Shown here one piece after another: positions 8,930-28,478 of a DNA stretch of 30,887 bases (positions within the stretch are counted from its first letter, which is position 1; each line of letters starts with the position of its first letter). Made by a program: the position numbers and the translations under genes. This DNA comes from a virus: positions 1 through 30,887 of the IMG/VR virus record IMGVR_UViG_3300005563_000077, one strand, 5' to 3'. The notes below the pieces were generated by a model. The model worked only from the letters and a program-made list of their open reading frames with translations. It did not search any database and had not been told where the DNA came from.

Positions 8930-9441
8930 GCCAGGCCGCCTTCCGCGATAGCGGCGCCAACCGCCTTATCGAAGCGGGCGCCGATGTTCTTCTCCTCACG
9001 GTCCGCGGCGCGGTAGAGGAAGGGGTCGCCCTTGATGCCCGGATTCATCACGCGGCGCCGGAATATGAACTTGCCGCCGGCCAAGAATCGCAGGGCCTTG
9101 CCGCTCTTAGCCTGGATGGGAAACGGCTTGCCGCTGGGGCCGTGAACGCCCGTCCCGTTATGCAGGAAAGGGGCGTAATCAGCCAGGCCCGTATCGAGGT
9201 AGACGCGGCCGCCCAGTCCCGAGGAATTCGCCTCCGGGGCGATGGACTTTTCCGCCATCCCGCCGCGGGAGACGAACGCATGATTCTGCTGCGCGCTGAC
9301 CTGGATATCGCGCAAGCTGGCCTTGGTGGCCAGCCGAAGCTGCTTCTGCGTCGCCTCGGGAAACTTACGCAGGGCGGCGAGTGCCGCTTCCCCGTTGATG
9401 GCGGTCTTCAGTTCCAAGGAAGGGTTACCCCTTCCCGGCAT
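8926..9441 (-). CDS. HK97 gp10-like head-tail joining/tail component protein
   Basis: Protein of about 171 residues if it starts at ATG 9441; a TTG about 24 bases in is an alternative, because the GGAGG touches the ATG with no spacing. The layout resembles the HK97-gp10 family: an N-terminal helical part (EAALAALRKFPEATQKQLRLATKASLRDI), a middle with DYAPFLHNGTG (the family's YA-yvE-GT-like stretch), and a C-terminal part GDPFLYRAADREEKNIGARFDKAV. In HK97-type phages this protein sits at the head-tail junction. The start region overlaps the end of the preceding gene by 17 bases and contains a perfect hairpin. Confidence 0.65.
   Translation of the reverse strand: MPGRGNPSLELKTAINGEAALAALRKFPEATQKQLRLATKASLRDIQVSAQQNHAFVSRGGMAEKSIAPEANSSGLGGRVYLDTGLADYAPFLHNGTGVHGPSGKPFPIQAKSGKALRFLAGGKFIFRRRVMNPGIKGDPFLYRAADREEKNIGARFDKAVGAAIAEGGLA
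9417..9434 (-). other. Perfect 7-bp hairpin with GTAA (GNRA) tetraloop at a stop/start junction
   Basis: On the minus strand GGAAGGG-GTAA-CCCTTCC forms a perfect seven-base stem with a GNRA-type loop. The TAA of the loop is the stop codon of the upstream gene (9425-9730), and the stem overlaps the start region of the gp10-like gene. It could modulate reinitiation or mRNA stability at this junction. Confidence 0.55.
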
Positions 9442-9730
9442 CCTCCGAAGGGCTGGCCTCGGTGGCCGGCGCGCCGGTACCGTCGCCCGCCGCATCCGGA
9501 GGGTTGGAGGGTTCGCTGGAATCCGCGGCCGACGTCTCGGAGCCCTCCGGGGGCACTTGAACGGGATTCGCGGTCAGGGTTTCGGTGGGCTGGGAAGGGC
9601 TGGCCTCGGTGGCCGGCACCGACGCGGGGAAATACCCGGCCTCGGCCCACAAGGCGAGCTCTTCCGGGGTATTGGGGATTTCCGAGGCCTCCGCGGGCGT
9701 GCGGTAAACCCAGATGGTGTTGCGTTCCAT
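9425..9730 (-). CDS. Pro/Ser/Thr-rich low-complexity protein
   Basis: Protein of 101 residues. The N-terminus (MERNTIWVYRTPAEASEIPNTPEELALWAEAGYFP) looks like a small folded head. Residues 38-101 are disordered-looking and rich in Pro, Ser, Thr, Glu and Ala, with the octamer PATEASPS occurring twice. ATG 9730 has an AAGGAG site just upstream. It is the first gene after the coat protein terminator-like hairpin. A decoration or capsid accessory role is possible from position only. Confidence 0.62.
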   Translation of the reverse strand: MERNTIWVYRTPAEASEIPNTPEELALWAEAGYFPASVPATEASPSQPTETLTANPVQVPPEGSETSAADSSEPSNPPDAAGDGTGAPATEASPSEDAGKG

Positions 9731-9802: not shown

Positions 9803-10924
9803 TTATCCCTGGAAGACGACGCCGGCCTTCGGGTAGATGGCCTTCGCTCCCGCGAAGACGTCGACCACCAGGCTGTTCGACAACGAACCCAGCGCGCCGT
9901 CCATGGACATGCGCACCGAAAGCCCGTTGTAGTTCTGGGCGAAGCTATCCATGCCGGCCAGGGGGGCCGGGGCGATGACGGCACCGGCCACCGCGCGCAT
10001 GTTGTACAGGAGATCCTGCTTGAACGCGGTCTCGAAGGTCAGGGCCGCATTGTCGGCCGGGGCTGCGGAGAGCGCCTTGTCCAAGGTCAGGGTGGTAGCG
10101 TTGCCGGCGATGGTGGCATCGGCGATGACCGTATAGGTTCCGGTGGCGCCGGTCACGGTGAAGCGGGTACCTTCCTTGACGGTGCCGGTGGCGGCGGTGA
10201 AGCCGTCAACGGCCAGCGTGGTGGAATTCTGGCCGCCGCCGTTGACCAGCACGGTGCCGGCGATATCGCCGCGGTTGAAGGAGGTCAGCGCGTTCTGGCT
10301 GGTGAAGAAAGCGGCGCCGTGCATCTTGCCGAGCGCGCCTTCGCGGATGGCCATGGGGCGCTCGGGGCCGTAATCGGCGCTGGTGAACTGGTTCAACTGC
10401 AGGAGCGCGGTTTCCGCGGTCGAGTCGATGATGCCGACCATGTTCCGGTAGGGGGCCAGGTTGTCGAAGATGGCCTTACGGCCGGCGAGCAGGTGGGCGA
10501 TGGTCGACGGCGAATTGCCGGCGGTGCCGACTAGGTAGCGGGCGAACGAGCCAGCCCACTTGGCGAGGAAGTAGGCGTCGATGGAGCGCGCGATGGCCAG
10601 CAGGGACGGGCCCGCGACTTGCACGGCGAAATCGTCCACGCTCAGGGAGAGCTCCCTGGAGGTGAGGTCGATGCGCTTGTAGAAGTGCTTCTCGAGCTTG
10701 ACGGTGGTCGAGGTTTCGGTGAGGCTGGCGGCGGTCGTGGTGCCTGTGAATTCATCGGCCTGGCCCAAGTCGGGCACGACCTTCACATCGACGCTATCGC
10801 CGACCTTCTCCGCGAACTGCGCTTCGATTTCCCTGTTGCACAGGTTCGCGCAGACGAGATTTTCCGACAGGATGATTGCGGCATCGCGAACGACTTTCGC
10901 GGTGAGCTTGAACGTATTGGTCAT
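9803..10924 (-). CDS. Major capsid (coat) protein, P22 coat-like
   Basis: Protein of 373 residues. The N-terminus (MTNTFKLTAKVVRDAAIILSENLVCANLCNREIE, then FAEKVGDSVDVKV) matches the layout of P22-type coat proteins (helix, NLV-x-R, a KxGDTV-like turn, then a strand pair). The segment VKLEKHFYKRIDLTSRELSLSVDDFAVQVAGPSLLAIARSID is another hallmark of that family. Residues about 215-285 are Thr/Ala/Gly-rich beta sequence and look like an inserted domain, comparable in place to the P22 I-domain. It lies immediately after the scaffold gene and is followed by a terminator-like hairpin, as expected for the most abundant virion protein. Confidence 0.88.
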   Translation of the reverse strand: MTNTFKLTAKVVRDAAIILSENLVCANLCNREIEAQFAEKVGDSVDVKVVPDLGQADEFTGTTTAASLTETSTTVKLEKHFYKRIDLTSRELSLSVDDFAVQVAGPSLLAIARSIDAYFLAKWAGSFARYLVGTAGNSPSTIAHLLAGRKAIFDNLAPYRNMVGIIDSTAETALLQLNQFTSADYGPERPMAIREGALGKMHGAAFFTSQNALTSFNRGDIAGTVLVNGGGQNSTTLAVDGFTAATGTVKEGTRFTVTGATGTYTVIADATIAGNATTLTLDKALSAAPADNAALTFETAFKQDLLYNMRAVAGAVIAPAPLAGMDSFAQNYNGLSVRMSMDGALGSLSNSLVVDVFAGAKAIYPKAGVVFQG

Positions 10925-10938
10925 GGCTTAGAGCCTTC

Positions 10939-11661
10939 CTAAATCGTGGCGCGCAGCATCCCAGCTAATTGGGTCCTGCGTTCCTGGTCTGTCGGCTCCT
11001 TATTGGGTTGGCCGTTACCTCCTCCTGCTCCGGGACCACCTCCACCTCCAGGGTTTTGGGAGTTGGTCACGTAAATCGTCTTCTTCTCAAGAAATTTCCC
11101 GAGGCCGTCTTCGACCGTGAAGACTTCGCCTTCGGCTTCGCCCTTCCACGTCACGCGCTCGTTTTCCTCGTCGTAGACGAGGCGGGAATCCAGCGCGACG
11201 GTGAGGTCGTCCATCGCCTCGGGCAGAACCTTTTTCTCGGTCATGGCCTTGGTGAGGGCGGCGCGCTTGGCGTTCTTGGCCGCCTTATCGCGCGCCAGGG
11301 CTTCCCTCTTGTCGCGTTCCTGGTCGCGCTTATCGCGGTCGTCCAGTTGCTTCTTCAACTTCAGGAATTCGGGGTCGGTCTGGATGTTGGGCTTCTGGAC
11401 GCCCTTTTCCTTCAGCGTCTTGTATTCGCCGATTTGGGTGTCGAAGTCCTCCGATTCGGGATCGAGCCCGAGAGGCTCGGTGACCTTCTTCAGGCGGTCG
11501 CGCAGGCCCTTGGCCTCGTTGTCCACCTTCTTCTTCTCGGTGATTCCGCGCTGCTTCTCGGCCTCGGTATCCGTCTTGAGCTTGGCCTCCACGGCCGCCA
11601 CCAATTCGGCTCCGCCTTCGAGTGCCTCCAGGGCCTTCTTCGCGTCATCGTAGGTCTTCAC
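10939..11661 (-). CDS. Capsid scaffolding protein
   Basis: Protein of 240 residues with GTG start 11661 and an AGGGGA ribosome site. It is highly charged and almost entirely helical, with long heptad-like stretches (EAKLKTDTEAEKQRGITEKKKVDNEAKGLRDRLKKV, KLKKQLDDRDKRDQERDKREALARDKAAKNAKRA), then a Gly-rich linker and a short Arg-containing end (QERRTQLAGMLRATI). This composition and its place directly before the coat gene are typical of phage scaffolds, which guide coat assembly and then leave the procapsid. A copy of the promoter-like element lies 58 bases upstream of the start. Confidence 0.82.
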   Translation of the reverse strand: MKTYDDAKKALEALEGGAELVAAVEAKLKTDTEAEKQRGITEKKKVDNEAKGLRDRLKKVTEPLGLDPESEDFDTQIGEYKTLKEKGVQKPNIQTDPEFLKLKKQLDDRDKRDQERDKREALARDKAAKNAKRAALTKAMTEKKVLPEAMDDLTVALDSRLVYDEENERVTWKGEAEGEVFTVEDGLGKFLEKKTIYVTNSQNPGGGGGPGAGGGNGQPNKEPTDQERRTQLAGMLRATI

Positions 11662-11718: not shown

Positions 11719-11736
11719 CTTTAAATTCGGGACATA
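11719..11736 (-). promoter_or_regulatory. Promoter-like element, copy C (before scaffold/coat operon)
   Basis: The minus-strand sequence TATGTCCCGAATTTAAAG is identical over 18 bases to copy A at 19943-19960 before the small terminase gene. It lies 58 bases upstream of the scaffold start and downstream of both an intrinsic terminator (12825-12861) and the endonuclease gene, where a new promoter is needed. A 5-bp inverted repeat (GGGAA-CCT-TTCCC, 11739-11751) abuts it. The role as promoter or operator is inferred; the exact start point is unknown. Confidence 0.55.
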
Positions 11737-11760: not shown

Positions 11761-12342
11761 TCAGGCGGGATTTACGGCATAACTCCTTTTGTTTCCAAGG
11801 ATTCCAGATGAACAAATCTGAACTGATACAATTCGATTCGACGCCCGAATTTCGTTAAGCCGAGCAAATTCACCGAATAACCGTGAGGCTGCGGCGTTGT
11901 ATGCCTCCGCAGCGGAATTCTCGTCTCTGTAATTTCCGAGGTTTAAGCTTTTTTTCTCGAACCAAATCCGCGCGATGAAAAAACCAGATCTCCGGTTATA
12001 TACGACACCCTTATAGAAGGATGTCCCGCTCTTATGCTTTGCAGCGTTCCGGCAGTTTTGCTGGCTAGTGCACGCTCGGAGATTACATCTCTGATTGTTC
12101 AGGCCGTTTCCGTCAACATGGTCAACATGGATTCCGCGGCTTGCGCCTAGAATTTCTCGGTGCATTCGTATCGAGCGGCGGCGCCCCTTGTCGTCTATCT
12201 CAAATCGGATTGCATAGATCACTTTGCTTTTGTGACATGTGTTCGCATACCACACATATTTATTAATGGTTTCGAAATCGGAATCATCTACGATTGCAAA
12301 TCGCCGACGATATCTCTCGCTCTTCAGCTTTATTTTTTTCAT
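11761..12342 (-). CDS. HNH homing endonuclease with C-terminal AP2 domain
   Basis: Protein of 193 residues. Residues about 50-105 form an HNH_3-type core: RMHREILG, then HVDHVDGNGLNNQRCNLR and QNCRN, giving the His, Asn and His positions. Residues about 105-165 match an AP2-type DNA-binding domain (SGTSFYKGVVYNRRSGFFIARI, LNLGNYRDENSAAEAYNAAASRLFGEFARLN). This pairing is typical of phage free-standing or intron homing endonucleases. The gene is clearly more AT-rich than the flanking virion genes and stands alone between the tRNA terminator and the scaffold operon. It has a GGAGAG ribosome site before ATG 12342. Confidence 0.88.
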   Translation of the reverse strand: MKKIKLKSERYRRRFAIVDDSDFETINKYVWYANTCHKSKVIYAIRFEIDDKGRRRSIRMHREILGASRGIHVDHVDGNGLNNQRCNLRACTSQQNCRNAAKHKSGTSFYKGVVYNRRSGFFIARIWFEKKSLNLGNYRDENSAAEAYNAAASRLFGEFARLNEIRASNRIVSVQICSSGILGNKRSYAVNPA

Positions 12343-12464
12343 CCCACTCTCCCGATGGATTGGGGCTCAATAAAAACCGGTTTTTCGGGTTTTTATAGGG
12401 ATTTGGTCTACTAGCTTGAGAAAGTCATGCAGGTCGGCCGGCGCCTTTGGTTAAATTGTGCGTC
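12343..12464. promoter_or_regulatory. Divergent intergenic region with AT-rich palindrome
   Basis: This region lies between the leftward endonuclease gene and the rightward gene at 12465. It contains a perfect 14-bp palindrome AAAAACCGGTTTTT (12372-12385) inside a larger inverted repeat with 9-bp arms ATAAAAACC and GGTTTTTAT (12370-12378 and 12388-12396). The palindrome could be an operator or an intrinsic terminator usable on either strand. No convincing -35/-10 pair is seen. Confidence 0.45.
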
Positions 12465-12827
12465 ATGGGCTTAAAGGAGGATTTGGAGGGCGGGGAGAAG
12501 TGGGTATTGACCGCGCCATTAGTGCGGATGCTTTGGCAATTCGCCAAGGAAGCCGAGTGGAGCGGGTGGAATACGAAATGGCGGGCCCATTGCTGCCCGT
12601 TCTGCGGCGGCCCCAAATCCTATCTCACGCATGCGGAATACTGCGCGCTCCTCATCGCGATGCGCGTGCTCGAAACGCAATATCCGCAGGTAACGCGGCC
12701 GTTACCCATGGACCCGATTACCGAAATGGAAGCGAAGTATTTGGAGCGGCTGCTACTCGGCGGGATTGAGCGAATGGTGAAGGGCGAGGAGCCGCGCGAT
12801 CCGCGGAAGCCGTTTTGGGAGGATTAA
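12465..12827 (+). CDS. Cys-rich small phage protein, the only plus-strand gene
   Basis: Protein of 120 residues from ATG 12465; a TTG at 12447 would add six residues. A zinc-binding-like cluster HCCPFCGG … THAEYC lies at about residues 44-61, followed by a helical stretch (EMEAKYLERLLLGGIERMVKG) and a charged end (EEPRDPRKPFWED). Codon use (GC-rich third positions) and amino-acid composition look like a real gene rather than a shadow. It runs against all other genes and ends exactly where the minus-strand terminator U-tract lies. Function unknown; an independently expressed accessory (moron-like) gene is one option. Confidence 0.62.
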   Translation: MGLKEDLEGGEKWVLTAPLVRMLWQFAKEAEWSGWNTKWRAHCCPFCGGPKSYLTHAEYCALLIAMRVLETQYPQVTRPLPMDPITEMEAKYLERLLLGGIERMVKGEEPRDPRKPFWED

Positions 12828-12861
12828 AAAGAAGCGGCTCCAAAGTTTCCCTCGGAACCGC
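12825..12861 (-). terminator. Intrinsic terminator of the head-gene/tRNA transcript
   Basis: On the minus strand an 8-bp stem GCGGTTCC / GGAGCCGC (one G-U pair) with a 12-base loop is followed by TTCTTTTT. It ends the leftward transcript carrying the minor head gene, the tRNA and the gene-free stretch. On the plus strand the stem carries a C-A mismatch and has no comparable T-tract. Confidence 0.78.
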
Positions 12862-13122: not shown

Positions 13123-13143
13123 GCTTTATCGGCCTGGCCGGCC
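13123..13143. repeat. 21-bp exact repeat, copy 1 (gene-free region)
   Basis: This stretch begins GCTTTATCGG and ends TGGCCGGCC and is identical to 22847-22867. Here it is in the gene-free stretch between the tRNA and terminator. Confidence 0.8.
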
Positions 13144-13287: not shown

Positions 13288-13364
13288 TGGTAGCGGGAGA
13301 CGGATTCGAACCGCCGACCTACAGGGTATGAACCTGCCGAGCTACCGGACTGCTCTATCCCGCC
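13288..13364 (-). tRNA. tRNA-Met (CAT), initiator-like
   Basis: A 77-base cloverleaf with encoded CCA. Acceptor GGCGGGA pairs with TCCCGCT, with a weak G1-U72 first pair. The D stem is GAGC/GCTC, giving the A11-U24 pair typical of bacterial initiator tRNA. The anticodon stem is GCAGG/CCTGT with loop TTCATAC (anticodon CAT). The T arm is GGCGG-TTCGAAT-CCGTC. The three consecutive G-C pairs usual next to the initiator anticodon loop are not all present (A29-U41). It could be an initiator, an elongator Met or, if modified to lysidine, an Ile tRNA; the D arm and 1-72 pair favour initiator-like. Confidence 0.88.
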
Positions 13365-16078: not shown

Positions 16079-16281
16079 CAGAGCCTCAAATTCCAGCATT
16101 CATCGCCGCAATGGTCGCAGCGGAGCTTGTCGTTTCCATCCCAGCTATCGACGATGATGAGCCGGCCTTCGCCGCAGGTCTTGCACCTGGGACGAAACAG
16201 GCGCCCGACCCCCATTCCGAGTAGGAACAGGATGAGGATGAAAAGACCCAGGAGCATAAAGGCTTTTTCGTCACTCCCCAT
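16078..16281 (-). CDS. Membrane-anchored zinc-ribbon protein
   Basis: Protein of 67 residues from ATG 16281, which has GGAGG at eight bases; ATG 16287 is too close to that site. A membrane segment (AFMLLGLFILILFLLGMGVG) is followed by a zinc-ribbon-like pair C-KTCGEG and C-DHCGDEC. The stop overlaps the next start, and its own start overlaps the end of the portal gene. Function is unknown; the anchored zinc ribbon would face one side of the inner membrane. Confidence 0.62.
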   Translation of the reverse strand: MGSDEKAFMLLGLFILILFLLGMGVGRLFRPRCKTCGEGRLIIVDSWDGNDKLRCDHCGDECWNLRL

Positions 16282-17872
16282 TGCCATCGCCTCCCTGCGT
16301 TCCGTTGGCTGCGCCGGATGAGCCGTCGCCGTCAGTCGGCGCCGCGGGAGGCTTGGCAGGTGCGGCGGGCCCCGCGCCCTTGTCTCCTGCGGCCGCCTGC
16401 GAAAAGACTTGGTCCGCGGTCTCCAGCACGATGCTGTTGAGCAGCTCGGTCACCAGTTCATCCTTCGAGTCGCGGAAGTTCTTCGCGACCCAGTCCTTCT
16501 TGATTTCCTGGTTCACGCGCGGGGAGATATTCAGGGCGAGTGCTTCGCTGGCCGCCTCGGTCTCCGCGGTCATATCAACCAGGCCATAGTTTTCGGAGTA
16601 ATTGACCTCGTACTGCAAATCCTTTTTTAGGTAGAGGCCGAAGATGCGGATGACTTCCATCTCCGCGCGCTCCATGACATGGCCGAAGCGGGTCAGCTCT
16701 TCGCGCGCGCTTTGGAACTCCCATTCCTTCGCCCGCCCGCTCTCCTGCTTCACGACCATGCCCACGATGCCGACCAGGCTGGCCATTTCGAACATCTGCT
16801 CGATGAGGAACTTGCGATCTTCCATGATGGCGCGGGCGATATCCGGGTCAGGGCTCATGAAGTCCGGGGGCTGCGATGCGGTCATCGGGAAGGGGATTGC
16901 GTTCTTCGTGCCAACCTCAAGCTGTCCTATTTTTCCTCCGGGCTCCACGGGGATGCGCATGAGGCTGAACATTTGATTCCGTTCCAACTCCCGCAGCTCG
17001 CTGGACACGTCGTAAACCGCGAGGTTCGTGCGCGCGACATGGTACAACGGGGGATGGGGGAGGACGGGATCTTCTTCCTCGTCCGGTTCCTCGTCATAGA
17101 CGGGGATGATGGGGATCTCGCCAATGGTGATGGCGCCGGTCTCGATGACTTTCCGCGTCTTTACGCCGGTCTTTTGGTCCTCCTCCAGCTCGAAAAGCGT
17201 CCAGCCGGTCGGAGTCCATTCGCGGTACCGCCACACCTTCTCGCCTTCGACGTTCTTCTGCCATTCGCGGAACACGACGCGGCTCAAGCGTTGCAGGTCG
17301 TCCCACTCGTACTCGCAAAGGTCTTCGGGCGAATAGCAGTACACGTAGGGATATTGCTTTTTGGAAATCGCATCGCCCTCGGACTTCGCCAGCGCCTCGG
17401 CCTTGTCGTTGTCCACCACTACGAAATAGACGCCGTACCGCTTTGTCTTCCGCGCAACCCGCTTCATGAAATCGTTGAACGTGTGCCCGCGGCGGTTGCA
17501 GTTCTTCATGAACAGGTCGTAGAAGGGATTCTCGCCGGCAATCTTCCGTACCGGCTCCTCGCGGAAAATCGGCTTGGTCAGCGCGTTCAGAATACGCTTG
17601 GTGAAGTTGAGGTAATACGAGTAGTTGCGGCGCTCCTTGAAGCTGCGCTCGCGGCTGTGCGCCGTCAGGTATTGGCCGAATAGAAACCCACCGGTCCCGT
17701 TGTCCGCGTGCCGCATGAACTCGTAGACGTTGACCTCGTTTATCCAGACTTCCTGGACATCCTCATCCTGCTTGCTTCGCCCCCTCGGGTCGACGGCCGC
17801 GCCCTTGGTGGGGAGCTGGCCCGTGGTGAGATCGGCTTGCTGCGATGCGACGGTCGGCTGCGTATTGGCCAT
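16271..17872 (-). CDS. Portal protein
   Basis: Protein of 533 residues lying directly after the large terminase, the usual place for the portal. The N-terminal part (VWINEVNVYEFMRHADNGTGGFLFGQYLTAHSRERSFKERRNYSYYLNFTKRILNALTKPIFR) matches portal proteins of long-tailed phages, with the LNxTKRILNALTKPIF helix and a later EREPxxRIPVxPG-like stretch (MRIPVEPGGKIGQL). Helices near residues 360-400 (EDRKFLIEQMFEMASLVGIVGM, KEWEFQSAREELTRFGHVMERAE) fit the stem and crown helices. The C-terminal 45 residues are Gly/Ala/Pro/Asp-rich and disordered-looking. Confidence 0.86.
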   Translation of the reverse strand: MANTQPTVASQQADLTTGQLPTKGAAVDPRGRSKQDEDVQEVWINEVNVYEFMRHADNGTGGFLFGQYLTAHSRERSFKERRNYSYYLNFTKRILNALTKPIFREEPVRKIAGENPFYDLFMKNCNRRGHTFNDFMKRVARKTKRYGVYFVVVDNDKAEALAKSEGDAISKKQYPYVYCYSPEDLCEYEWDDLQRLSRVVFREWQKNVEGEKVWRYREWTPTGWTLFELEEDQKTGVKTRKVIETGAITIGEIPIIPVYDEEPDEEEDPVLPHPPLYHVARTNLAVYDVSSELRELERNQMFSLMRIPVEPGGKIGQLEVGTKNAIPFPMTASQPPDFMSPDPDIARAIMEDRKFLIEQMFEMASLVGIVGMVVKQESGRAKEWEFQSAREELTRFGHVMERAEMEVIRIFGLYLKKDLQYEVNYSENYGLVDMTAETEAASEALALNISPRVNQEIKKDWVAKNFRDSKDELVTELLNSIVLETADQVFSQAAAGDKGAGPAAPAKPPAAPTDGDGSSGAANGTQGGDGNGE

Positions 17873-17880
17873 TGCGGCTC

Positions 17881-19449
17881 CTAGATGTTGACCTGGGCTT
17901 CGTGGTATTCGAAACCGGTTTCGAACTTGTTGACCATGTGGGCGGTGGTATCGACGCGGTCGTTTTGCTTGCCCTTCGGGAACTTCTTGTGCTCGTCGAT
18001 GAACGGGTCAACGAACGCATAGAGCAGCGGGTGGGGGAGATACAGGTCCCCAGCCTCGCAGGAAGCGGAGGCGGGCCGCGCGCGCGTTACCTTGTCGTTC
18101 TCGGCGGGCAGCGGACAGATACCGGAAATCTTGCCCGAGAGGCTGGCGATCATCGCGGCGCCGTTGGCCTTCTTCTCGACGTACTTCGCATGCGCTTGCG
18201 GCCATTTCTTCGTCATGGCCTGAAACGCGGTGATGGTGCCCGGGAAATCCACCTGCTCATGGAACTCGTCGAGCAGGTACTTGCGCGCGCCGAGGCGGCC
18301 CCAGACGACGCCCTCCACGAAGCTGCTTTCGCCCTCGCTGAATTCGCCGTCGTCGAACGCCAGATCCCAGAACTGGCAGATTTCATCCAGTTCATCCGGC
18401 AGCTCGACGGCCGTGATGCGCAGGATGTCGCCTTTGTCCGTCTTGACCTCGACGGGCGGCAGGTCCATGCCCTTGGGCTTCCAGTACCGCCACCAATGCC
18501 ACTTGAACATGCCGCCGGTGTCGGGAGAAGGCGATTGCATGATTTGGCCCGAGAAGCCATAGGAGCCCAGCCGGCGGCGGTGGCCGGCCAGGATGCTCCT
18601 ATCCAGGCGCACAGGATCGAACAGCCCATCGACGTAATGCTTCCGCAGCTCCGGAGGCTTGATGTTGTCCGCGTATTCCCCGGGGATGCAGATATGCTCC
18701 CAGCCCTCGGGGTCCGTGGTCAGCACGTGGCCGGTGAGGTCGTTTTCGTGCAAGCGCTGCATAACGACCATGCGCGCGCCGACCTTCTGGTCATTGAGGC
18801 GCGAGGCCATGGTCCGGTCATAATGCGTATTGCAGGCCTTGCGCTCGGTATCGCTATCGGCCTGCTTGGGATTCAGCGGGTCGTCGCCGATGAGGAAGTC
18901 GGCACCCTGCCCGAGAATGGTGCCGCCCGTGGATGTGGCCCTGCGGAATCCGGATTTGTCGTTGGAGAAGTAGGATTTGACGTTCTGGTCGACCGAGAGC
19001 TTGAAGACGTGGCCCCAGTTCTGCTGGTACCAATCGGAAAGGATGATGCGGCGGGACTCGACGGCCTTGTCGAGCGAGAGGTCCGCGGCATACGACCACG
19101 TGATGAACTTGAGCCAGGGATATTTCGTCCATGCCCACGGCTGCAAAAGCTCGGTTACGATGCGCGTCTTGCCCGTGCGGAAGGGTACGTTGATGATGAG
19201 GTCTTTGGTCTTCGGTACCTTCTTCGCGACGCGCTCGACCTCTTGCTGCAGGCGGTTGCAGAGGTAGGGGATATGCCAGTTGACGGTTATTTCCGTCTCG
19301 GGCTCGATGATTTCCCAGGCTCGAAGGAAGAACGCGAAATAGGACCGCTCGCATTCGCGCTTCTCCTGCTCATCGAGCAGGTAGAGCATGTCGAGCAACT
19401 TCTCACGTGAGAGGTTGTCGTTGGCGAATCGTTCGAGGACCCGGGGCAT
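17881..19449 (-). CDS. Terminase large subunit
   Basis: Protein of 522 residues. The ATPase domain shows Walker A PFRTGKT (residues 89-95), a Walker B-type ADFLIGDD (183-190), and the coupling-like QRLHENDLTGHV stretch. The nuclease domain begins near FWDLAFDD (D362), followed by VVWGRLGARKYLLDEFHEQVDF, and later NDKVTRARPASASCEAGDLYLP, a stretch usual near the C-terminus of terminase nucleases. It packages DNA into the procapsid through the portal. It begins five bases after the small terminase stop. Confidence 0.93.
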   Translation of the reverse strand: MPRVLERFANDNLSREKLLDMLYLLDEQEKRECERSYFAFFLRAWEIIEPETEITVNWHIPYLCNRLQQEVERVAKKVPKTKDLIINVPFRTGKTRIVTELLQPWAWTKYPWLKFITWSYAADLSLDKAVESRRIILSDWYQQNWGHVFKLSVDQNVKSYFSNDKSGFRRATSTGGTILGQGADFLIGDDPLNPKQADSDTERKACNTHYDRTMASRLNDQKVGARMVVMQRLHENDLTGHVLTTDPEGWEHICIPGEYADNIKPPELRKHYVDGLFDPVRLDRSILAGHRRRLGSYGFSGQIMQSPSPDTGGMFKWHWWRYWKPKGMDLPPVEVKTDKGDILRITAVELPDELDEICQFWDLAFDDGEFSEGESSFVEGVVWGRLGARKYLLDEFHEQVDFPGTITAFQAMTKKWPQAHAKYVEKKANGAAMIASLSGKISGICPLPAENDKVTRARPASASCEAGDLYLPHPLLYAFVDPFIDEHKKFPKGKQNDRVDTTAHMVNKFETGFEYHEAQVNI

Positions 19450-19453
19450 GACT

Positions 19454-19927
19454 TTATCCCGCTGCGGGGGGCTCGGGAGCCGCCGGGTCGGGTACCAGGT
19501 TTTTCATCCTGCTGATGCGCTCGGCCAGCTTGCGGCGCAGGTCGTCATCGGTCAGGCCTGCGTAAGGGTTCTGGTTGACCTGCGTGATGCGCTTCTTTTC
19601 TTCCCACTCCTCGACGAACTGGAGGAAGAGCTTCCCGGCGCGGGCATCCCCCGCCCGACTGGCCCGATACATGCCCATGACCACGTCTTCGGTGAGCATT
19701 CGGAACCGGGCGAATCGGTCCGGATTGTTTTTCAGGGAACGGAGATGGTCCTTGACCGCGGTCTCTTTGAGGCCGGTGGCCGCCATGACTTCGGCGGTTG
19801 TGGGGACCCTTTTTTCCCGGTCAAGGGTTTCAAGGAAGCACCTTTGGATGTCCGCGTGATTCTTTTCCCAATCGCCTCGGCGTGCTACATCCTCGCCCCC
19901 CGTGGGTCGTGTTTCGTCGGGTTCCAC
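19454..19927 (-). CDS. Terminase small subunit candidate
   Basis: Protein of 157 residues with a GTG start at 19927 and no good ribosome site. The N-terminal half has a helix-turn-helix (PTTAEVMAATGLKETAVKDHLRSL, residues about 42-65). A helical segment (MLTEDVVMGMYRASRAGDARAGKLFLQFVEEWEEK) follows, and then a Pro/Ala-rich tail. DNA-binding HTH plus helical oligomerisation region directly before the large terminase is the layout of small terminases. The promoter-like element copy A ends only 16 bases upstream of the GTG, so the transcript may have a very short leader. Confidence 0.75.
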   Translation of the reverse strand: MEPDETRPTGGEDVARRGDWEKNHADIQRCFLETLDREKRVPTTAEVMAATGLKETAVKDHLRSLKNNPDRFARFRMLTEDVVMGMYRASRAGDARAGKLFLQFVEEWEEKKRITQVNQNPYAGLTDDDLRRKLAERISRMKNLVPDPAAPEPPAAG

Positions 19928-19942
19928 CCCGCCAACATGATT

Positions 19943-19960
19943 CTTTAAATTCGGGACATA
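19943..19960 (-). promoter_or_regulatory. Promoter-like element, copy A (before small terminase)
   Basis: The minus strand reads TATGTCCCGAATTTAAAG, identical over 18 bases to copy C. With flanks (AAAAAGTCCTC before, AATCATGTTG after) it also aligns with copy B over about 40 bases. It sits just before the packaging and head operon. A TATGTC hexamer could serve as a -10-like site, with transcription starting about 20 bases before the small terminase GTG. Promoter function is inferred from recurrence at operon starts. Confidence 0.55.
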
Positions 19961-19970
19961 GAGGACTTTT

Positions 19971-20460
19971 TAGGGGATTGTGGGGGCTTTTGCGGCCGGG
20001 GCAATAGGGGGTCGCCACCGCTTTTACCCGGCCTTGGCTCGGGCTCTAAACCGTTCTGGAGGGTTCAAGTAGTGGATTCGCTTGGACGGATCGCCCCCTC
20101 TATCCCCATTGCCTGGCCGGTAAGCGGCGAGGCGGGAACGAGAGGGCATTGCGGGGTTTGGCCGGTCCGCCCCTTGCGAGGTGGTGGCCTATCTCCGTGC
20201 CGCACGCCAACCGTAGGTACGCACAACCCCTTGGCGCGCTGCTCCAGGCTGCCGCGGGTTATCGGTAACCCTATCCGCGGTTCAGAAAGGAAGCCCCTCC
20301 CGGGTACAGGATGCGCGGCTGATAGGCGAGTAGTCGGCCCGCCGTCTGCGCATCCCAGGAGCGACCCCCGATGGGCTGGTCTTCGGATGGCTCAGATTAC
20401 CCTGGATGGGGCGATGCCTCTTGCGAGGCGCGCGGTCCGAACCCGCGAATCGGCAATATG
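19971..20460 (-). other. Gene-free structured region: ncRNA or packaging (cos/pac) candidate
   Basis: No convincing coding frame is seen on either strand. The minus strand carries GCCTC-GCAA-GAGGC (20416-20429, GNRA loop), CCTC-GCAA-GGGG (20170-20181, GNRA loop), GGGTTA-CCGA-TAACCC with an outer CCGC/GCGG (20252-20280), and a long-range stem pairing 19993-20010 with 20104-20119 (15 pairs with one bulge and a small internal loop). Promoter-like copy B lies just upstream. Being next to the terminase genes it could also be the DNA packaging site. Neither option is proven. Confidence 0.4.
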
Positions 20461-20465
20461 ATTCG

Positions 20466-20490
20466 CATAATTCGGGATTCATAGGACTTT
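20466..20490 (-). promoter_or_regulatory. Promoter-like element, copy B (diverged)
   Basis: The minus strand reads AAAGTCCTATGAATCCCGAA followed by TTATG. Compared with copy A it shares AAAGTCCT, TATG, TCCCGAATT and, further downstream, GAATCAT-TTG. It lies just after the stop of the last accessory gene (20502) and points into the gene-free region, so that region may be transcribed. A weak hairpin CTTAG/CTAAG (20491-20506) abuts it. Confidence 0.42.
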
Positions 20491-20501
20491 CTTAGTAATG
20501 G

Positions 20502-22399: not shown

Positions 22400-22683
22400 T
22401 AGAGGTTGCCTTCCTGTCCCTCGGCCCGGGCCGCGAATTCGAATGGATCTCCGGTGAGCTCGGGCACCGGATGACCCGGGCATCCAGTTTGATAGTCGAA
22501 TCCCTCGCAGTTTGCTGCCATGGGGAGCACGCGCCGGCCCATGGCCTTTTGCTCCTTCAGCCAGGCGCGGGATTTAGCGTCGGATAGCTCGCGGCCCTCA
22601 TCGTCCGTGACCCAGCCCTTGAGGTTGCGGCGCTTTAATAGGCCGTCGATGTTAACGCATAGATGCACGGTTTTGCCGCCCAT
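22399..22683 (-). CDS. Small Cys-containing accessory protein
   Basis: Protein of 94 residues from ATG 22683 (TGATG overlap with the upstream stop). The stretch DDEGRELSDAKSRAWLKEQKAMGRRVLPM is helical, and NCEGFDYQTGCPGHP is a familiar end motif of short phage proteins (GFD-x3-GC-GH). Two cysteines and a histidine in the end motif could hold a metal ion together with Cys8. Function unknown. Confidence 0.6.
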   Translation of the reverse strand: MGGKTVHLCVNIDGLLKRRNLKGWVTDDEGRELSDAKSRAWLKEQKAMGRRVLPMAANCEGFDYQTGCPGHPVPELTGDPFEFAARAEGQEGNL

Positions 22684-23426
22684 CACGCTTCCCCCTGACC
22701 CGCCGCCCCGGGCTCGAAACTGCGGATCCGGTATTCGATTTCCTTGGCAATTTCGCGTGGCCCCTGCCAAACGCCGCCCCCAATGGGGTAGGAATCAATG
22801 AGGATGGAATCGAATTTGCCATGGCTTTCGTTGTAGATGGTGCGCAGCTTTATCGGCCTGGCCGGCCTCTCCGGGTTCCCCTGGGGGGAAGATTCGGAGG
22901 GTTGGGACGGTTCGCGCGGGGCGCTCACCGAGCTTCGCTCTAAGAGGGCAGCCAGCTTTTTAGCGGCGCCGGTGATTGTTGTTTCGGCGGCATCCTCATC
23001 GGATCCTTCCTCTTCCAGGTGGTGCAAGTCCGAAATCAGGTCGTATAGCACGTCCTCAATGGGGCCAAGGTCCTCGGCCACCGCCTCCCGCAGGGCGTCC
23101 AGGCTCCCCACGGGGCGGGCGCACAATTCCTTGATTTCCTTGATCATCGCCACCACGCGAGCGTCGATCATCCCGTCTCCGTCGATGATAAACGATTGGC
23201 GTATCGCGTCAAGGTCCAGGCCCTTGCCTCCCCCTTCCCCGGCGCTCGCTCCCTTGATTTTCCATGCCTTGACCGCGCAAGCGTGGCATCGGGCCGCGCG
23301 CTTATCGCAGTCATTCGACAAGTTTTGGCAGTCCCCGCACCTAATCGTGTAGTGGCCGGCGGCGTAGCCGTATGGAAGCAATTCCTTTTCGGTTGGCTCT
23401 CCCCCGGCGCTCGGATGGCTAGACAT
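22683..23426 (-). CDS. Zinc-knuckle accessory protein
   Basis: Protein of 247 residues. The N-terminal 55 residues carry a Cys cluster RCGDCQNLSNDCDKRAARCHAC, most likely a zinc site. A helical middle (DALREAVAEDLGPIEDVLYDLISDLHHLEEE) is followed by a Pro/Ser-rich linker (APREPSQPSESSPQG). The C-terminal part contains LRTIYNESHGKFDSILIDSYPIGGG. The start overlaps the upstream gene by eight bases. A 21-bp stretch inside the gene (22847-22867) is repeated exactly in the gene-free region near 13.1 kb. No enzyme motif is seen. Confidence 0.58.
   Translation of the reverse strand: MSSHPSAGGEPTEKELLPYGYAAGHYTIRCGDCQNLSNDCDKRAARCHACAVKAWKIKGASAGEGGGKGLDLDAIRQSFIIDGDGMIDARVVAMIKEIKELCARPVGSLDALREAVAEDLGPIEDVLYDLISDLHHLEEEGSDEDAAETTITGAAKKLAALLERSSVSAPREPSQPSESSPQGNPERPARPIKLRTIYNESHGKFDSILIDSYPIGGGVWQGPREIAKEIEYRIRSFEPGAAGQGEA
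22847..22867. repeat. 21-bp exact repeat, copy 2 (inside zinc-knuckle gene)
   Basis: Same 21 bases as at 13123-13143, in the same orientation. Here it is coding, within the PARPIKL segment of the gene at 22683-23426. Confidence 0.8.
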
Positions 23427-26418: not shown

Positions 26419-26679
26419 CTATTTGAAACTCGGGTCGAACCGACGCAGCATGCCGCGAAGCTGCGCGACCAGTTCATCCTGCGGCAGACTCATGAGCTTG
26501 AAATCGTCGGGCATGATGAGGATTTGGTCCGCAGTTAGGTTCGGGAACGCCTTCAGCAGTTCCCGAGTGACCATGGCCGCGTTGACCTCGCGTTGCCCCG
26601 ACTTCAATATGAGCACCTTGCCATCGAGCTCGATAGGTTCGATGGTTTCGATGCTGGTGTACTTGATGCTGGACTTCAT
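26419..26679 (-). CDS. Small accessory protein after the sigma factor
   Basis: Protein of 86 residues from ATG 26679, overlapping the sigma factor stop (ATGA). A small beta-like N-terminus (IEPIELDGKVLILKSGQ) is followed by helices (NAAMVTRELLKAFPNLTADQILIMPDD, QDELVAQLRGMLRRFDPSF). Strict coupling to the sigma-like gene makes a regulatory partner (for example an anti-sigma or co-activator) an idea worth testing, but nothing in the sequence shows it. Confidence 0.58.
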   Translation of the reverse strand: MKSSIKYTSIETIEPIELDGKVLILKSGQREVNAAMVTRELLKAFPNLTADQILIMPDDFKLMSLPQDELVAQLRGMLRRFDPSFK

Positions 26680-27470
26680 TTTGCTTTCGTTCCTTTTTGG
26701 ATAGGGCGCCCGAGGTAGGTGGCCATGCGGGTGCGCAGTTTGAGCCGTATTTCGTGCGTGATCTGGTCGACGCGCTGCGCGGTTACGCCGAGCCGCTCGC
26801 CGATTTCCCTGTTCTTCAGTTCATGGTCCGGGTGGTACCGCCACTTCCAGATGCGAAATTCCTTGGGGGTGAGGGACTGCTCGATTTTCTTCCAAAGGTC
26901 GGCCTCGGTCGGGCGTCCCAGCGCATCCCGCGGATCTTCCCCGGCCATCAAATCCTGGATCTCCTCGCCGTCCGGTCCGAGCTTTTGGTTCATGGACTGG
27001 GTCCGAATCATCATCGAATCCAGGAACCTCTTCTCATCTTCGGATACAGGTTTGCCCTTCGCGACCCGGCGCATGATTTCCCGGCGCTTGTTAAGCTGGT
27101 TTTGCGGGATGTGGATGGCGAATTTCTCCTGCCTCCACAGGGATAGGCTATGCAGCTTCCACCCGATGAGATGCGAATGCAGGTGGCCCAGGCGCGGGTC
27201 GTACGCCATGAGGGCACGCGGCAAGATGAGCTTGTATGTCTGAAACCAATCCGCCTCGTCCATCGGGCTATCGAATGTCGCCGGCGGCTTTTTCAAATAG
27301 TTGAAGTTGAGTTCCAGGAGTGTGGCAATGAGCTTGCGCTGCATCTCCGGGGCTGCGCCCGCATACCGTGCGCCAATGCTATCGTTCAGGGCGGCGAGAG
27401 CCCCCGCGCTAATCTTCTCCCGCTTGCCGCGGAACAAAAGGCTATACGTTTTCTGCGCCACGGCTATCAT
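26676..27470 (-). CDS. Sigma-70-family-like transcription factor
   Basis: Protein of 264 residues. I chose ATG 27470 with AAGGAG eight bases upstream. Residues about 72-125 resemble sigma region 2: DWFQTYKLILPRALMAYDPRLGHLHSHLIGWKLHSL, like the AxxxFDPxRGxxFxTYAxxWI signature, followed by FAIHIP (compare xIRIP). Residues about 199-250 form a region 4-like HTH: LTPKEFRIWKWRYHPDHELKNREIGERLGVTAQRVDQI, then RLKLRTR. It would direct RNA polymerase to phage promoters, possibly the repeated elements near 11.7, 19.95 and 20.48 kb. The small 71-residue gene upstream overlaps its start. Confidence 0.75.
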   Translation of the reverse strand: MIAVAQKTYSLLFRGKREKISAGALAALNDSIGARYAGAAPEMQRKLIATLLELNFNYLKKPPATFDSPMDEADWFQTYKLILPRALMAYDPRLGHLHSHLIGWKLHSLSLWRQEKFAIHIPQNQLNKRREIMRRVAKGKPVSEDEKRFLDSMMIRTQSMNQKLGPDGEEIQDLMAGEDPRDALGRPTEADLWKKIEQSLTPKEFRIWKWRYHPDHELKNREIGERLGVTAQRVDQITHEIRLKLRTRMATYLGRPIQKGTKAK

Positions 27471-27657
27471 CCGTTCTCTCCTTGGGTGGGGTGATCTGCT
27501 TGGGCTTCCGCATAAGCCCTTTTCTGATTTTTTGCTGTTCTCGATAATCCGTGAGGCATAAACGCCCCTGGTACTTGTTATGGTTCCGCCAGGTGAGGCG
27601 CACGCCACACACCTTGCAAAGGCTGGGGTAGAGGTTATGGCCGCGGTGGCGGGTCAT
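27442..27657 (-). CDS. Small Cys-pair basic protein
   Basis: Protein of 71 residues, ATG 27657 overlapping the upstream stop (ATGA). A CKVCG pair near the start (LYPSLCKVCGVRLTWRNHNKYQGRLCLTDY), a further Cys at LCLTDY and a very basic remainder (REQQKIRKGLMRKPKQITPPKERT) suggest a metal-stabilised nucleic-acid binder. Its end overlaps the sigma-like gene by 29 bases. Confidence 0.6.
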   Translation of the reverse strand: MTRHRGHNLYPSLCKVCGVRLTWRNHNKYQGRLCLTDYREQQKIRKGLMRKPKQITPPKERTDDSRGAENV

Positions 27658-28478
27658 TCGTCTACCTCGGCGATCGCAGGAACCTCAGGGGAAAATTTCT
27701 TTTCGATATTTCTCAGCGAATCCTGGAATCGGTCGAGTGTCGATTTAAGAGAGTGAAGCGCTACTTCGAGCTCTGGTGGAATGGCCTTCCTGAGGTCCTC
27801 CACCTTTCTTTCAACCTCGAAAGTCGAGAAGTATTTATCTGCCTTGAATCCGAGATTGGAAAGGATGTTTTTTACATCCTCATATTTACGGTTCTGGTCC
27901 CTGATTCTTTTGTTTTCCTCTTCAACTTCCAGGATTCTTTTCTTAACCTCATTCCTGATGGCACCTTTAACTTCCCAACCGAAATTTCGGTCTATCTTCT
28001 TCTCTCGAAGCCAGTTTTCCCAATACAGCCTCTTGTTTGCGCTGGAAGATTCGCGGGAGATTTTAGCTCGGGTGTAGAGGATATATCGGAAAATCGAATC
28101 GGGGATTATGACATCCCGCCATTCTGCTTTTTTCTTTTTGAAAAGGATGGTTCCCGTACTCGATACGGTCATGAGTCCGGCCGGCGCAGGAATTTCTTCG
28201 GGCTTGAGCATTCCTGCCGGGCATACGAAATAGAACTCGTTGCAGTAGGCAAGGTATCCTCGCCACTTATCGTCGCGGGAGAAATCCGAACGGCTGACCT
28301 TGATTTCATACCCCGTCGCGCAAGGATTCGCCCAGCTCTTCTTCATGGCCCAGCCATCAAGGATCAGGAGTCCCTGGCCGTAACTGGCTCCGTCCTTGCA
28401 TTGGGATACGAATACGTCGTCCGTGTGCTTATTCGCGAGCAGTCTCTCGATGTCCCGGGCTGTTAAGGTGCGGGTCAT
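27654..28478 (-). CDS. MmcB-like PD-(D/E)XK nuclease-fold protein
   Basis: Protein of 274 residues. Residues about 37-105 carry the MmcB-type nuclease pattern: ILDGWAMKKSW, YEIKVSRSDFSRDDKWRGYLAYCNEFYFVCP, where E-I-K is the catalytic E-x-K. The C-terminal half is a long coiled coil (EVKKRILEVEEENKRIRDQNRKYEDV, RKVEDLRKAIPPELEVALHSLKSTL). MmcB-type proteins take part in DNA repair in alpha-proteobacteria; a phage version could process DNA ends or attack host DNA. The gene is clearly more AT-rich than its neighbours, so it may be a recent import. Confidence 0.68.
   Translation of the reverse strand: MTRTLTARDIERLLANKHTDDVFVSQCKDGASYGQGLLILDGWAMKKSWANPCATGYEIKVSRSDFSRDDKWRGYLAYCNEFYFVCPAGMLKPEEIPAPAGLMTVSSTGTILFKKKKAEWRDVIIPDSIFRYILYTRAKISRESSSANKRLYWENWLREKKIDRNFGWEVKGAIRNEVKKRILEVEEENKRIRDQNRKYEDVKNILSNLGFKADKYFSTFEVERKVEDLRKAIPPELEVALHSLKSTLDRFQDSLRNIEKKFSPEVPAIAEVDE

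Follow-up and report, generated by a model that had tools for sequence, protein, structure and literature searches.

Gene organization of the late region

The window analyzed here, that is, the whole stretch of DNA under study, is the entire IMG/VR record of 30,887 bases, which is linear and has no end repeats. Nearly all genes lie on the − strand, and + strand genes are few. Because no replication gene and no tape measure were recognized in the window, the contig is probably incomplete.

Late operon 1 begins with the gene for the small terminase subunit TerS (19454..19927, − strand), which was assigned by position and has no significant family match. It continues with the large terminase subunit TerL (17881..19449, −; phrog_38, E 3e-81), the portal protein (16271..17872, −; phrog_145, E 4e-62), head morphogenesis, and a tRNA-Met (CAT) at 13288-13364, midway through the structural region. 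The tRNA is followed by approximately 430 nt without coding signal, up to a strong leftward hairpin resembling an intrinsic terminator (12834..12861, −), with a 12-bp stem, a U-rich tail, and a fold z of −5.2. This terminator closes the first late operon and lies 5′ of the scaffold operon. Facing it on the + strand, convergent with the late operon, is a probable small gene at 12447-12827 (126 aa with a CPFC motif), for which no PHROG match was obtained.

Late operon 2 starts with the head scaffolding protein (10939..11661, −; phrog_206, E 4e-8), followed by the major head (coat) protein (9803..10924, −; phrog_283, E 5e-58), whose relatives show 42-46% identity, and then by probable tail genes. 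Between the terminator and the scaffold gene lies a homing-endonuclease-like gene of the HNH/AP2 type (11761..12342, −), assigned from its codon score and from two Pfam matches that are both sub-threshold, HNH_3 (E 2e-5) just below the cut-off and AP2 (E 1e-3) well below it. The gene has low G+C and foreign codon use. It is one of three HNH-type nuclease genes in the window; relatives of the one at 965-1585 (39-40% identity) occur in locus L205, and the one at 28475-28936 matches PHROG HNH families. The gene for a sigma-70-family protein is found at 26676..27470 (−), and upstream of it, at 27654-28478, an MmcB-like DNA repair family protein is encoded (relatives at 30-36% identity in L033 and L102).

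Two long exact repeats were also observed in this genome. A 24-bp repeat (9447-9470 and 9594-9617, 147 bp apart) is contained within a small gene (9425-9730) 3′ of the coat gene. A 21-bp direct repeat, GCTTTATCGGCCTGGCCGGCC, occurs at 13123-13143, in the non-coding stretch 3′ of the tRNA, and at 22847-22867, within a predicted gene (22683-23426); it is longer than the 18-mer described below.

The 18-bp element and its diverged copy

The 18-mer TATGTCCCGAATTTAAAG occurs exactly twice in the window, at 11736..11719 (element A) and at 19960..19943 (element B), both on the − strand. Element A is located 57 nt 5′ of the GTG with which the scaffold gene starts (11661) and 24 nt from the end of the HNH/AP2 gene, whereas element B is located 15 nt 5′ of the TerS start (GTG 19927). 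Both lie in non-coding gaps and are oriented with the genes. The first-pass annotation had reported an identical 18-bp element before the scaffold/coat genes and before the TerS/TerL/portal genes, and this was confirmed. It had also expected that a motif search would return copies only before operons; in the whole window, every exact copy was found ahead of a structural operon, and no copy fell within a gene. Even when up to three mismatches were allowed, A and B were the only sites in the whole window, with 0.01 expected by shuffles.

An 18-bp repeat as such is only mildly unusual on the scale of the whole window, where approximately 2 of 60 one-strand Markov shuffles contained an exact direct repeat of that length. 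The repeat is significant because of its position. Among the gaps, defined as the ~2.1 kb remaining outside a hand-drawn gene map, the longest gap-to-gap match was 18, beyond the maximum of 17 reached in 3000 shuffles.

The identity between A and B forms one contiguous block with sharp edges. Apart from a few scattered bases, nothing else is shared, and the flanks are unlike. Three copies of the nine-base core TCCCGAATT are present in the window, always on the − strand and always at the gap sites A, B, and C (the diverged copy described below), and never on the + strand. The element sites are local A+T peaks (0.65-0.70 vs. about 0.4 genome-wide). None of the three sites has a match to the host sigma-70 consensus TTGACA-(16-18)-TATAAT nearby, and a common bipartite pattern of the −35/−10 type did not rise above shuffles among the gaps. 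Furthermore, no dyad was evident in the 18-mer, and neither exact-element site folds better than usual (z −0.3 and +2.8). A four-codon open frame, ATG TCC CGA ATT TAA, is complete inside both exact 18-mers (11719-11736 and 19943-19960), possibly by coincidence. Elsewhere in IMG/VR, the exact 18-mer was found once (L003), within a gene of an unrelated T4-like contig, and this was rejected as a chance match.

Element C (AAAGTCCTATGAATCCCGAATTATGCGAATC; about 20460..20490, −) contains TCCCGAATT and lacks TTTAAAG. Inside the 18-mer, TTATGCG replaces TTTAAAG and TATGAA replaces TATG. Its alignment with B covers ~40 bases and scored 48 against a shuffle maximum of 35, with the shared pattern CTAA.AAAGTCC..CTATG..TCCCGAATT....GAATCAT.TTG. 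In contrast, its likeness to A was within chance (score 26, equaled by 93 of 1000 shuffles). Because the match of C to B extends to the flanks and has a broken 18-mer, whereas the match of A to B is confined to the 18-mer, C is regarded as a paralogue of the B region and not as a third clean copy. The diverged copy that the first-pass annotation had placed at 20466-20490 thus stands as regards the core and the wide match to B, but not as an intact 18-mer or as a relative of A. C is probably decayed or non-equivalent to B and would not be a working third promoter.

The gap that holds B and C (19928..20501, −) spans 574 nt and is non-coding in all six frames. A structured RNA was considered for this gap and rejected; the Rfam scan found no family in it, and its folding was only slightly above shuffles (z −1.4). 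Similarly, its resemblance to the gap 3′ of the tRNA was not above shuffles.

The sigma-like protein and candidate readers of the elements

The sigma-70-family protein, a candidate reader of the elements, has 264 aa from ATG. This start, at 27470, is reasonable, and a GTG extension upstream has non-coding codon statistics. The helix-turn-helix of region 4 is present (Pfam Sigma70_r4, 30.5 bits against a cut-off of 24.1, E 2.5e-7) and was also aligned to FliA. The product matched phrog_351 (RNA polymerase sigma factor) with E 7e-12 over residues 113-296 of the longest frame. Its alignment with RpoS (E 7e-4) is collinear and takes in the linker before region 4, and tblastn matches to RpoD/SigA, although weak (E 2e-3 to 5e-3), extend over 80-87% of the length. 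The Sigma70_r4, phrog_351, RpoS, and RpoD/SigA matches bear out the sigma-70-like protein proposed earlier for 26676-27470, which by its sequence is a genuine though divergent sigma-70 relative. No separate Pfam match to region 2 was obtained; the presence of this region, responsible for core binding and −10 recognition, is plausible. A single-sequence AlphaFold model had a mean pLDDT of 51 and was confident in region 4 only.

As judged from their sequence and placement, the two 18-bp elements are likely a pair of late promoters. Element A would be the promoter for the scaffold/coat/tail operon and element B that for the terminase/portal/head operon. Late promoters are the best account of the element positions, because within the window the exact 18-mers precede the two structural operons only, the core is found solely at A, B, and C and solely on the − strand, and the sites are local A+T peaks. 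In addition, late operon 2 needs its own promoter because the leftward terminator at 12861-12834 ends late operon 1, and A is the sole repeated element in the stretch between this terminator and the scaffold. It had been claimed that a copy lies behind a terminator, where a promoter is required; this is upheld for the scaffold copy by the 12-bp stem and U-rich tail (z −5.2).

The best single reading is that these putative late promoters are used by the sigma factor encoded at 26676-27470, a reading we hold tentatively, at somewhat less than an even chance. It is favored because a sigma-70 family protein is present and a host consensus promoter is absent at the sites, and because phiEco32, 7-11, and T4 set a precedent in which a phage sigma, with the host core, serves late promoters. 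The early and middle genes, including the sigma-like gene, would be expressed first from host-type promoters. The phage sigma would next bind the host RNA polymerase core and steer it to the elements. A dedicated late-promoter system in this phage is plausible, and we infer the transcription start at the elements, its late timing, and the identity of the reader.

Several observations weaken the sigma-read interpretation. The contiguous, sharp-edged block lacks −35/−10 type architecture, and only two clean copies exist. If B is the promoter, the leader of TerS (GTG 19927) could not exceed about 15 nt, and a well-placed ribosome site would be missing from it. Furthermore, no relative has the sigma together with the elements. 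Relatives with the sigma were found neither in IMG/VR (pattern scan), nor among isolated phages, nor in the records of coat relatives, and scanning IMG/VR with the sigma and with TerL as single proteins yielded no matches. TerL relatives showed at most 43% identity in viral contigs and at most about 41% in genome contigs, and a matching portal, scaffold, or coat accompanied none of them; the coat relatives at 42-46% identity lacked a matching sigma. When the TerL and coat relatives were searched for Sigma70_r4, a few weak matches appeared; one of them exceeded the cut-off and belongs to a phage with a terminase of only 30% identity. None of the TerL and coat relatives shares a gene set with the window. 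Phylogenetic footprinting was not possible, as a relative combining this sigma with this capsid set was not found.

The unlikely alternative that survives best is that a phage RNA polymerase of the single-subunit (T7/Xp10) type, coded in a missing part of the genome, uses the elements as promoters, with the 18-mer at roughly −17 to +1. A contiguous, sharp-edged 18-bp identity in few copies before structural genes is the Xp10 pattern (PMC4331800) and fits promoters of such polymerases at least as well as phage-sigma promoters, and the linear record without a recognized replication gene or tape measure would leave room for the polymerase. However, no such polymerase was recognized among the window proteins scanned (small ORFs in part), and the phage carries a sigma gene. 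Likeness to T7-group promoters was not significant either; among the T7, T3, SP6, and K11 sequences, the best match was 9/18 (T3), which 10% of shuffled 18-mers equal, so that a resemblance to T7-type promoters was rejected.

Binding sites of a phage or host activator of the late-regulator type, aiding host RNA polymerase at poor promoters, are improbable to a slightly greater degree. They would account for an identical block in both late upstream regions that lack a consensus host promoter, but the 18-mer has no evident dyad, and B, at 15 nt from the TerS start codon, leaves no space for a promoter downstream. We consider it just as improbable that the repeat is a by-product of recent local duplication or homing-endonuclease activity, or an RNA-level leader element, with no promoter role. 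The HNH/AP2 gene of foreign codon use next to A, the four-codon frame in both copies, and the fact that the 18-mer is only one of three long exact repeats in the window are consistent with such an origin. Nevertheless, it leaves unexplained why both copies lie on the coding strand ahead of structural operons, B has no HNH gene nearby, and neither site folds unusually well. The least probable alternative takes B and C, which are alike over ~40 bases and flank a non-coding gap directly 5′ of TerS, a usual location for such sites, as terminase/packaging recognition sites (pac/cos type), with A as a secondary or fortuitous copy, but the perfect repeat is between A and B, and a packaging site would not be expected at A, 8.2 kb away and ahead of the scaffold gene.

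Late promoters read by the phage sigma remain the preferred reading. Its most specific form, that a phage sigma without detectable close relatives reads one contiguous ~18 bp element instead of a two-part one at just two late promoters, is by itself a long shot. If the preferred reading is right, one protein and two 18-bp sites would form a compact sigma/promoter pair in a phage group without a cultured close relative, and the small number of phage sigma factors whose target sites are known would grow by one. The general understanding of late phage transcription would be left unchanged.

Comparison with known phage promoter systems

In Xp10, two 43-bp repeats upstream of structural genes contain two ~20-bp promoters of the single-subunit polymerase (PMC4331800). 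Similarly, a contiguous block of about 20 bp is present twice upstream of structural genes here. In contrast to Xp10, a polymerase gene was not recognized in the window; this comparison is by description, as T7-group sequences alone were scored.

In T4, gp55 provides sigma-family late specificity with a −10-like element only, at late promoters of the form TATAAATA (−13 to −6) (PMC1524935). The sequence TTTAAAGA in copy B is loosely similar to this late promoter. However, T4 requires gp45 and gp33, neither of which was recognized here, and eight positions are conserved there compared to 18 bp here. At 18 bp, the contiguous block exceeds the length of the phage-sigma promoters used for comparison.

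In phiEco32 and 7-11, late promoters 5′ of structural genes are served by the host core under the direction of a phage sigma (PMC8948821). The mapped late promoters of the 7-11 sigma, SaPh711_gp47, are bipartite, GTAAtg-(16)-aCTA (PMC8948821). The present system would share with 7-11 a phage sigma, late genes, and the host core polymerase, whereas one contiguous block is found here instead of two parts with a variable spacer. An earlier repeat-based prediction for 7-11 gave TGTGATGTTATA-like motifs (PMC4331800). Our own comparison of the two papers showed that these predicted motifs differ from the promoters mapped later; a comment on the earlier prediction was not found in PMC8948821. Finding a repeat ahead of structural genes therefore hints at promoters but does not prove them.

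The phiEco32 sigma, gp36, uses middle/late promoters with the 9-bp motif tAATGTAtA, mapped experimentally in six copies (PMC4331800, PMC8948821). The present case differs in having 18 bp in two clean copies and a candidate reader, and no sequence relation was shown between the two motifs. Like phiEco32, this phage encodes a sigma factor and would have few, single-block promoters before its structural operons.
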